Source of the DNA: Ectocarpus siliculosus
Taxonomy: Eukaryota; Sar; Phaeophyceae; Ectocarpales; Ectocarpaceae
Length of the DNA: 52,211 bases
Direction of reading: 5' to 3'
NCBI GenBank assembly: GCA_000310025.1
Contig: FN648299.1
Span: 184,617 to 236,827, forward strand
Shown here: piece by piece, positions 8,966 through 26,759 of the stretch
Numbering within the stretch: position 1 is the stretch's first letter
How the letters are laid out: every line of letters begins with the position of its first letter
The notes under the pieces: generated by a model
The model's input: the letters and a program-made list of their open reading frames with translations, nothing else
Database searches by the model: none
Told to the model about the DNA's origin: nothing
Translations under genes and position numbers: made by a program

Positions 8966-11900
8966 ATGAGCGTCGAAGAGCTGCAGTCCATTGGCTCGGG
9001 CGATGACAGATCCCGCGAGTCGAGCTTGGCGAGTCTAGCGGATGACCTCACGAAGAGGAGCTCCGTTCACCATCGCCTGGGGTTCGGTCTGGACAGGGCG
9101 CTGGCACACCTACACGGGAAGCTCGATGGTGACGGCGTGCCGACGGCCGCCTCCCCGGCGGCGGCTGCGAACGAGAGCGGCGGCAGCCAGTTCCTCTCGA
9201 CCGCGGCGGCGACGGCATCGGGTGCTGCAAGCGGGTTCGGGTCGTTTCGGGTTCCCATTCAAAAGGAGAACGACAGCGCCGATCGAAAGCTATCTTCCTT
9301 GGCGGAAGGCGCGGGGGATGCTGAAGACGACCGGGGACAACAGGGACAACCGCCTGCTGCTGCCGTTTCCGATGCCCCGATCTTGCAGGTGTGTGTAATG
9401 ATTGCGTGTTCATTTAGAGTGAGATTATCATCGTCCCAACGTCATCAGCATGTGTTCAACCAACACACGCGTTTGTCCGGGGGGAAAACATGTAAACATG
9501 CCGCCGGGGGGGTCTGATGTCACCACCGTCATCATGTCACCATGCCGGCGTCGCCAAGGGCCGTGGGGCTCTCTGTGCTATGTGATTGGCCCCCCCGAGG
9601 TCGTCCCTTTCCTTAGGACGGTGCACGCATGTATCTGTCCCGTGCATGTATCGGGGCGCGGGGAGTACTCCCCAAAACCCCGAGGGCCTTGCTCCGGGAT
9701 TCAGGGAACACACGGAGGAGTACGCACGCGGTCTATTAGCGCGGGGAGTACTCCCCAAAACCCCGGGGCCTTGCTCCGGGATTCAGGGAACACACGCAGG
9801 AGTACGCACGCGGTCTAGTTGCATATAGTCTTCATAGGAGTACACGGGTTCATTTTCGACAACATGCGTACACATATGATGCATTAGTTGCGCATACGCG
9901 CAAGAGAGATCATCCGCGGGTGGTGCTGCTGCTTAGTACACCTTGATTTGTGTGCGTCCAGTCTGCCGCAGATGCTACTACAAACGTACCGATCGCCCAC
10001 GTCATAGACTATTATATAGACCAAATTTATTCAAGGCACGATTGCCCCACAGCTTTTGTGTAAGAGCGAACGAATATTGCAGCATACAGCAGTGAGCTAC
10101 AACTGCTGTACGACCGAGAATGAATAAATATGAAGTCTACAGCAGTATGCACACAGGTGCAGGGAAAATGGTAGCGAGATCTCTCCAGCATCGCCGTTTT
10201 TTCGGCGTTGGCAGCCTTTCGGTTGTGGCGGAGCTCATGTATATACTACAATATAGCGGATAAGAGTGCACTCGCTCGCACTCTCACGGCGGTGTTCACT
10301 TGTGTACCACGCCATCATCTTGGACCGCGAAACTGGATGAACTTAATAAAGAAGTACAGCAGCAGTAGGGTATATACTACACAGCAGTACTGCTGTACAT
10401 ACGATGCGAAAACATGAGTACAACACCCCCCTCCTTCCACCAAAACTACGGACAGCTATTGTACAGGGAGTTGACGCTGAAAACCCTCCGGCCTTCTGTG
10501 CCAACCCTCCTCCTGTTTCTCATTCGATAGGCAAGATAATTTACGTTGTCGAAGACATCCATCCCGCAAGTGGTGACGAGCTACCATCTCACAGCAACCA
10601 GAGCACAAGTGACACGAAACAGAGCGACCCCAAGGGCGTAAGGTCACGAGGGTCAACATAAAGGTATAGAGTCGAGGGTACGGTATCGGGAGCTTGCGGT
10701 AGTTCAAGGAAGCAGAGCCCTCTGCTCCCCTCCGCCTTGTGTACTTCAAGAATCGAGTGCGCTACTGTGTACTTGTAGTGTCGTGCACAAAAGCAGACCC
10801 GGTGCGCACGAAGCCCGGGACCTTGTCTTTTTTCGCTGACGAGGCCAGCCCCAACACCCACACTTGGTACGTACGCCAGGAGGGCAGAGGTTTGCACATC
10901 AAACATAAGTGAGAGATAAGACAAAAATATCCAAGCCATTAGGCCGAGGCTGCAGTGGGACCCCCTCTTAACAGGCCACGCTTTTATCGCCATGGTTTAC
11001 AACGAGCCAAAGAAAATCGAACGGATCAACATCGGAAATTGCACGCAGCAGCATGTAGCAGCTAGGTTTCGACGGCTCCCGAATTTTTTGCTTTCTTCCG
11101 GTCGTGATTGTTGTGTACAGCGTTTAGTGCCCTTTGTTATTTTTCGACTTCGGCTTAACACTTTGTAGTGCCTCTTGCGGCACGAGGTCGTAAATACTGC
11201 CCGCAGCCTTTCGTAGACTTGTTCTTGTTGTGCTACGGCGGGGCACCAGCCACGGTAGTAGTCGTGTCTTGTCCATTCGTTGATCGGAGCTTCGCTCAGG
11301 GCATCTCGGATTCCGAAGCAGACATTTTCTCATAAGCGGCTCTTTTGAGCTGCCGGTATCCGCCTGTTCTTCAAAACCGCAACAGTAGCGCTCGACGGGT
11401 CTCGTTCTAAGTGCCCCGGCCAAAGTAGAGCATCCGATGCCCACACACACAACATCTATCAGGAGCATGGCTTGCGTTTTCGTGCGCTGTGGTAGGGTGC
11501 GGGGAGCCAAGGGGGTGCGTACTTTCACTTCTCTCCTCGGAGGTCTTCAATGTTGATACGCCGCAGATACGTTTAATTGCTCGAAAATGGCCTCGTGCAC
11601 AGCTCGATCTCGACCTTCTTAAATGTACCATCATTGTTGGTGGGCGTGTTCACCGCCACAAGGCGCCTGCCTTACAACCCTCTCTCTCTTCAGTGTACTA
11701 GGTATCATTTTTTTTGTGTGAGTGAGTGCGTGTTGACATTGAGTTGGGCGCCTGCCTTTCGGCCCTCCTCTCTCTCGCTCGCTCTCTTTTGCCCTGGTGC
11801 CCGTCCATCCATCCACCTGCAGGCGCGAGTCCAGATCCCCGACTCCGCCTCGAACACAGAGCTGGACCGGCGCCAGTGGCTCAAGCAGCAGTCCAAGTCC

Positions 11901-26759: not shown

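Follow-up and report, generated by a model that had tools for sequence, protein, structure and literature searches.

A candidate giant acidic membrane scaffold with a variant FYVE finger in the brown alga Ectocarpus siliculosus

We analyzed a 52,211-nucleotide window of the genome of the brown alga Ectocarpus siliculosus (189 Mb in 492 contigs), located on the contig called C459 in the genome set; all coordinates given below are positions in this window. On its forward strand, the region 8966-26759 can be read as twelve exons that remain in phase throughout and encode 2,914 residues followed by a TGA stop codon, without an internal stop. Our favored reading, which we hold with slightly less than even confidence, is that this region is one brown-algal gene, encoding an acidic, largely low-complexity peripheral membrane scaffold of about 2,900 residues. 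Judged by sequence, its product is one of a few modular giant proteins that this genome encodes and that form a small family; by analogy, these may be giant acidic scaffolds, derived partly from phase-0 exons, that attach to acidic membranes through several contacts and are probably switched by phosphorylation as MARCKS is. A preliminary description of the region had suggested a tether or coat scaffold on endosomes or vesicles, attached by one membrane-binding finger; a tether or scaffold on membranes stays the best broad idea, but neither the endosomal placement nor the single contact could be maintained. Giant low-complexity proteins are easily skipped by annotation, and the multicellular bodies of brown algae arose separately from those of animals and plants. 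If our reading is true, the family bears on brown algal membrane organization, and, as it brings together exchangeable exons for membrane motifs and a FYVE finger of altered sequence, it would provide short peptides and a small finger as testable pieces for the study of scaffold origin.

For the gene model, we found GT-AG borders in all 11 introns. Two acceptors are of the NAGNAG type, at 14641/14644 (exon 3) and 19659/19662 (exon 8). The preliminary description was correct in its coordinates and in its twelve exons without phase conflict, and its length of about 2,912 residues corresponds to the downstream choice at both of these acceptors. In addition, exon 9 may start at 20379, to judge by the matching start of its homologue on contig C1. 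As an open-frame control, each exon was subjected to 1000 mononucleotide shuffles (Table 1). Exons 3 to 10 are open in 69 to 569 of the 1000 shuffles, so that openness is by itself weak evidence for them, and a codon-usage test of the exons showed no discrimination. Stronger support comes from recurrence elsewhere in the genome: exon 1, the junction of exons 1 and 2 and the finger recur on contig C489, the start of exon 2 and the finger on contig C16, and exons 9, 10 and 11, in this order and with matching borders, on C1. The exon 1 match on C489 (MSDDD..LASLADCLTKR..SDAPLLQ, then gtgaga) scores 57 against 25.7 ± 4.7 for shuffled sequences, none of 500 of which reaches it, and the junction lies in the same place there (DAPLLQ then ARVRIP). 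On C16, exon 2 starts with AHVRVPDS, so that the acceptor position is common to the window, C489 and C16; exon 1 was not found on C16 with the one pattern used. For the exon 1 motif (13 codons) compared with C489, synonymous sites are saturated, and its ratio of nonsynonymous to synonymous substitution rates (dN and dS) was set aside. Genome searches scored only the best candidates, and match counts given here are therefore lower bounds; apart from itself, the last 194 residues of exon 12 have 5 genome matches, at E-values of 0.05-0.23. The C-terminal tails of the window and C16 have a suggestive common WLxxL pattern, yet its score is reached by 35 of 500 shuffles and it was not used; a tail of this kind was not found on C489 with the patterns used. 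Intron 9 opens with a (GA)n microsatellite immediately after its donor site (approximately 20512-20653).

The finger in exon 2 belongs to the FYVE class. It matches the Pfam family FYVE (PF01363) at E = 1e-10 with 42 bits (36.2-42 for pieces of different length) against a cut-off of 27.8, and the two paralogous fingers score 48.2 and 34.1 bits, putting all three fingers scanned over the cut-off. Among PDB structures, VPS27 (1vfy) is the best match (9.4e-7), followed by LST2 and Hrs. The rabphilin/RIM-type family FYVE_2 (PF02318) was rejected, with the window at 11.7 bits and C489 at 20.8 bits, both below the cut-off of 27.2; the profile check that had been proposed for the FYVE-like finger of the preliminary description thus selects FYVE. 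Used as a query against the genome, the finger region returned 7 matches in total, among which, besides the window itself, C489 (63%, 4.2e-25) and C16 (62%, 6.2e-12) stand out, the remaining 4 being weaker (E-values from 3.8e-4 to 0.83). When the three fingers are aligned, the window finger has 63% identity to that of C489 and 60% to that of C16, and the eight cysteines of the zinc ligands, arranged as four CxxC pairs (alignment positions C17, C20, C33, C36, C41, C44, C63 and C66), are invariant in all three. The hallmarks of FYVE fingers are WxxD, R(R/K)HHCR and RVC, as given in the available parts of PMC2837644 and PMC3017826. In all three paralogues, WxxD is missing from the alignment as judged by eye (the window finger has LLRWCAVC), the central R(R/K)HHCR is replaced by RPHRCR, and the C-terminal R(V/I)C is replaced by RTC with its arginine retained. 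The sequence RRPHRC, which the preliminary description had read in place of RRHHC, is invariant in the window, C489 and C16. Canonical RRHHCR fingers are nevertheless present in the genome: a pattern scan displayed the finger in 4 of 8 loci, two of them canonical (L001 and L002) and two with RPHRC (L003 and L005), and it classified neither the other four loci nor ten further FYVE matches, save the C16 finger (L011), which has RPHRC. The RPHRC change therefore marks at least this clade, and not all Ectocarpus FYVE fingers.

These replacements bear on the lipid that the finger may bind. In a conventional endosomal FYVE tether, as the preliminary description saw it, the finger would bind phosphatidylinositol 3-phosphate (PI3P) and the remainder of the chain would be a passive flexible spacer. 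The FYVE membership over the cut-off is consistent with this, as are the residues R326, H328, R331 and R358, retained at ligand-set positions, and the turret-loop hydrophobic residue L324, also retained (L or Y in the paralogues). However, PI3P-specific recognition, with exclusion of other phosphoinositides, depends on two residues, the WxxD aspartate and the second histidine in HHCR, according to the accessible portion of PMC3017826, and because both are lost here, with RPHRCR in all three paralogues, PI3P specificity of this finger is doubtful on sequence grounds. The placement on endosomes was thus not earned; moreover, a passive spacer leaves unexplained the basic motifs M1 and M2 described below, which are conserved between loci, and we regard the endosomal tether as unlikely. 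Like the FYVE proteins EEA1, VPS27, Hrs and LST2, the window protein has the eight zinc cysteines and profile and PDB matches over threshold; it differs in having RPHRCR rather than RRHHCR or HNCY, in the missing WxxD and in its very large size, the only other Pfam domain over its cut-off being the doubtful DUF4097 discussed below. Its signature departs from the PI3P motif otherwise than the plant HNCY class does; the plant class V "variant" FYVE fingers likewise have no WxxD and a changed HHCR, as described in part of PMC3017826. Among stramenopiles, FYVE proteins with altered binding motifs are numerous in oomycetes, with 272 FYVE proteins in P. sojae (PMC8233823, in part), and Ectocarpus siliculosus has 2 ANK-FYVE proteins (PMC10912746, in part). 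These expansions (oomycete FYVE, ANK-FYVE, FYVE-PX) resemble the present case in their many FYVE proteins and altered motifs, but the giant layout of the window protein does not appear among the types described in the available text of these two papers, ANK-FYVE being another architecture.

Exons 9 and 10 each contain a basic motif, M1 and M2, respectively, in which lysine clusters are interspersed with serines and accompanied by hydrophobic residues (F, L, GLFGGL); M1 includes KPSFLKR. The exon 9 homologue on C1 has matching borders (66% over 44 residues, E = 1.3e-6). The comparison of exon 9 with this exon scores 123 against 26.6 ± 5.2 for shuffles, and that of exon 10 with the C1 exon for M2 scores 130 against 37.6 ± 6.7, each value being reached by none of 500 shuffles. 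For M1 against two C1 copies, dS is 0.87 and dN 0.19 over 25 codons (identical values for both); for M2 against five C1 copies of 15 codons each, dS is 0.35-0.76 and dN 0.03-0.06; and for the finger, dS is 0.62 and dN 0.12 against C489, and 0.95 and 0.22 for part of it against C16, all of these being rough values from short stretches. Since dS lies well above dN, the finger, M1 and M2 are coding and appear to be held at the protein level. Across the chain of 2,914 residues, 150 lysines and arginines stand against 424 aspartates and glutamates, and basic charge is highest in three windows of +10 each, residues 157-181, 1531-1555 (M1) and 1618-1642 (M2), followed by the stretches flanking the finger. 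The net charge is negative in 10 of the 12 exons, with exon 9 at +8, exon 10 at +2 and exon 11 at -104. The single membrane-binding finger of the preliminary description is thus joined by two basic candidate membrane motifs; the N-terminal part also has a strongly basic stretch, and exon 11 an ordered array of repeats. It could be argued that the protein is nuclear, with the basic N-terminal stretch, like M1 and M2, acting as a nuclear localization signal and the acidic chain binding chromatin or RNA factors. The lysine clusters KKPKR and KKGKK would fit this, and the MARCKS effector domain itself includes a nuclear localization signal, as stated in the portion of PMC6478813 available. We consider a nuclear protein markedly improbable, with a FYVE-class finger in the same chain and with the F, G, L and P positions of M1 and M2 kept between the window and C1, which is more than a nuclear signal requires.

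The modules of the window protein recur at three other loci of the genome (C489, C16 and C1), so that the layout, for which the preliminary description knew of no described family, is not isolated. With M1, M2 and the VP-repeat exon of the window (exons 9-11) as query, every match at E ≤ 1 (25 in number) falls on C459 (7) or C1 (18). Likewise, all 24 matches at E ≤ 0.01 to the M1 and M2 of C1 lie on C1 (23) or C459 (1, E = 1.3e-6), and all 29 matches at E ≤ 0.01 to a third module, M3 (GGDTSLTAGLAAGGVAAVGAIGAAVGLSGDKP), lie on C1 (23) or C489 (6, best 2.7e-9). The C1 giant locus, of about 30 kb, contains 2 copies of M1, 14 of M2 plus two M2-like C-terminal variants, and 14 of M3, as found by pattern, together with numerous VP exons. 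The order M1 exon, M2 exon, VP exon occurs once in the window and twice on C1 (at 39.2/39.9/40.2 kb and 43.3/43.9/44.9 kb of the retrieved stretch), where further exons between them are possible because the C1 exon model is incomplete. The donor sites are in the same place in the window and on C1, both after M1 (SE then gtgag; PE then gtaag) and after M2 (E then gtgag). In pairwise terms, the finger is common to C459, C489 and C16, the M1/M2/VP set to C459 and C1, and M3 to C489 and C1. As M3 is joined to the finger in one 1,185-codon frame on C489 and stands beside M1, M2 and VP on C1, the finger and the module set are linked in evolution. By eye, the stretch of C1 at about 1.812-1.844 Mb (L041-L044) is AHNAK-like, being made up of repeated, almost identical exons (VPDVSGDVSVPDVSGSLK units together with the modules M2 and M3).

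In its amino acid make-up, the chain is dominated by A, S, G, V and P and contains few W, Y, F, H or C residues. Across all twelve exons, FYVE and DUF4097 are the only Pfam families over their cut-offs; exon 1 matches DUF2076 at 21.3 bits (cut-off 38) and exon 10 matches Med3 at 11.7 bits (cut-off 29.3). From this composition and one low-confidence model of exon 11, the chain outside the finger is probably largely unfolded. The preliminary description had named the finger as the sole folded domain, and this stands, FYVE passing its cut-off, with the caveat that exon 11 also passes the DUF4097 cut-off. Within the repeat array of this exon, 11 stretches of 25-48 residues could be aligned as units, and substitutions among all pairs of these units number 567, 457 and 696 at codon positions 1, 2 and 3, the pairs not being independent. 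DUF4097 (Toastrack; beta-helix) matches one stretch of 83 residues at 25.2 bits (cut-off 22.9), a match that is lost in both controls (reversed and block-shuffled), and a structure model predicted from a single sequence, covering 420 residues of exon 11, shows strands approximately every 18 residues. Both results would suit a beta-solenoid rod, in which case the protein would be a stiff spacer. Against such a rod, the model has a predicted local distance difference test (pLDDT) value of 46.7 and a predicted template modeling score (pTM) of 0.45, none of the 40 Foldseek matches listed reaches E ≤ 0.001 (best 0.31), the single C1 VP exon that was scanned gave no DUF4097 match, and the would-be strands are rich in prolines; we give it little chance, the least of the alternatives considered here. 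The PPAY motif (Table 1) we take to be of the PPxY type, a candidate WW-domain ligand.

Returning to the reading as a membrane scaffold, proteins of the MARCKS, MARCKSL1 and GAP43 type combine an acidic low-complexity body with short lysine-rich motifs containing Phe and Ser, and MARCKS is roughly ten times smaller than the 2,914-residue window protein. The window protein is alike in kind, with M1 (+10 in 25 residues) set within an acidic chain; we propose that this likeness of M1 and M2 reflects the same physics and not common descent. Unlike MARCKS, it has two different motifs and a finger, and it starts (MSVEELQS) without the N-terminal myristoylation motif MGxxxS/T; searches of its motifs in Pfam and of the C1 form of M1 in PDB gave no match to MARCKS. 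Like AHNAK and AHNAK2, the window family is giant and of low complexity, with tandem repeats that alternate with basic patches (strongest on C1) and a short folded N-terminal domain, and the repeats of AHNAK are, as in the window family, of the V-P-D type. No homology to AHNAK is claimed: the window protein has a FYVE finger, repeats of about 37 residues (against about 128 in AHNAK and 165 in AHNAK2) and 12 exons, and none of these exons gave a PDZ match at E ≤ 1 in Pfam. AHNAK itself has an N-terminal PDZ domain and repeats of about 128 residues in one giant exon, according to the available part of PMC10682155. Basic domains of the MARCKS type bind acidic phospholipids, reversibly by phosphorylation or calmodulin, as described in part of PMC6478813. 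By analogy, the window protein would have two membrane-contact zones about 1,120 residues apart. The basic N-terminal region and the finger would dock on acidic phosphoinositides without a strict choice of PI3P, and M1 and M2 would bind acidic membranes in the manner of the MARCKS effector domain, from which phosphorylation or calmodulin would release them. The stretch of approximately 1,120 residues, mostly acidic, that separates the basic zones (405 to 1531) would, together with the VP repeats that follow M1 and M2, form a long, flexible, negative brush by which membrane partners are spaced or clustered. The family may have been built partly by movement of phase-0 exons with one module each.

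Several observations weigh against one gene for a membrane scaffold. The evidence for exons 3 to 8 consists entirely of open frames and splice sites; the finger and M1/M2 occur together in one gene only in the window, as C1 has no FYVE match among the 18 found in the genome, and C489 and C16 have no M1/M2 pattern match. These points would also fit two or more genes, namely a finger protein from exons 1 and 2 (the frame of exon 2 continues until the stop at 14180) and another gene, formed by the later exons, for VP, M1 and M2; the C16 locus, where finger, body and stop lie in one 1,157-codon frame, makes a stand-alone exon-2 product plausible. We nevertheless consider a split distinctly unlikely, since the 12 exons are in phase and the finger is linked to the module set through the finger-M3 frame of C489 and the M3 copies that accompany M1, M2 and VP on C1. 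Lipid binding by the finger is a candidate function only, given the missing WxxD and the two altered positions in R(R/K)HHCR, and the structure model of the finger is poor (pLDDT 55.9 from three sequences; no Foldseek match at E ≤ 0.001). For relatives of the finger outside the Ectocarpus genome, a search of IMG/VR gave 76 pattern matches, none of them confirmed. The C1 form of M1 matched no PDB chain at E ≤ 10, and six motif sequences (M1 twice, M2 twice, M3 and the C-terminal tail) matched no Pfam family. The MARCKS likeness is one of composition and arrangement, the lysine clusters can equally serve as nuclear localization signals, and the DUF4097 match means that the VP repeat could be folded.

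In its widest form, our proposal is that brown algae evolved AHNAK/MARCKS-like giant membrane scaffolds independently of animals by shuffling symmetric phase-0 exons, each with M1, M2, M3 or a VP-spring block, and that one branch gained a FYVE finger retuned off PI3P, giving one chain that reads two lipid codes more than 1,000 residues apart. As a whole we think this unlikely, though with a real chance of being right. No description of this layout or modular family was found in the available portions of the literature on FYVE, MARCKS, AHNAK, brown algae and stramenopiles.

Table 1. Exons and sequence features of the giant gene, in window positions, with the evidence for each
Feature	Position	Strand	Content and evidence
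Exon 1	8966..9388	+	start codon; 13-residue motif; DAPILQ at splice junction; open in 11/1000 shuffles
Exon 2	11823..14139	+	basic N-terminal region, FYVE-class finger, acidic/Ala-Gly-Ser-rich tail; open in 0/1000 shuffles
Variant FYVE finger, residues 313-363, ends ...LKRTCKLC	12336..12488	+	Pfam, PDB, paralogue alignment
Exon 3 (alternative start 14644)	14641..14858	+	acidic linker; open in 216/1000 shuffles
Exon 4	15501..15593	+	acidic linker; open in 569/1000 shuffles
Exon 5	15958..16411	+	acidic linker; open in 85/1000 shuffles
Exon 6	16972..17240	+	acidic linker; open in 186/1000 shuffles
Exon 7	19040..19337	+	acidic linker; open in 121/1000 shuffles
Exon 8 (alternative start 19662)	19659..20116	+	acidic linker; open in 69/1000 shuffles
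Exon 9 (possible alternative start 20379)	20373..20510	+	contains M1; open in 266/1000 shuffles
M1, 26 residues	20433..20510	+	net +10 in 25 residues; MARCKS-like make-up; C1 homologue
Exon 10	21346..21606	+	contains M2; open in 100/1000 shuffles
M2, 26 residues	21529..21606	+	net +10 in 25 residues; C1 copies
Exon 11	22241..24403	+	acidic VP-repeat exon; open in 0/1000 shuffles; matches C1 VP exons
Repeat array, unit about 37 residues, degenerate at its end	22385..23863	+	16 anchor hits
PPAY motif (PPxY), single copy	24242..24253	+	pattern count in protein
Exon 12 and stop codon	25107..26759	+	acidic C-terminal region; open in 0/1000 shuffles
C-terminal tail, 25 residues	26682..26756	+	similar to C16 tail NWLAALKGLVEKGGSCCH, similarity not significant

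Apart from the giant gene, the family EsV_1_7_cys, which is greatly expanded in brown algae, is hugely repeated in this genome (PF19114; at least 150 matches, all 150 of those scored among 880 candidates) and was found in none of 14 control genomes. In the window, a 2OG-Fe(II) oxygenase match on the reverse strand (29852-30364; 9.1e-5, 23.2 bits, below the cut-off of 31.2) is weak and is perhaps an exon of a neighboring gene. A reverse transcriptase open reading frame (RVT_1, 8.4e-32), followed by an open reading frame of 222 residues without a Pfam match, lies at 38149-40076 on the forward strand and is retroelement-like. The reverse transcriptase frame is flanked on both sides by tRNA-Glu genes, four in all (three with CTC and one with TTC), which lie on the reverse strand at 36109-36182, 40795-40868, 41875-41948 and 42806-42879.

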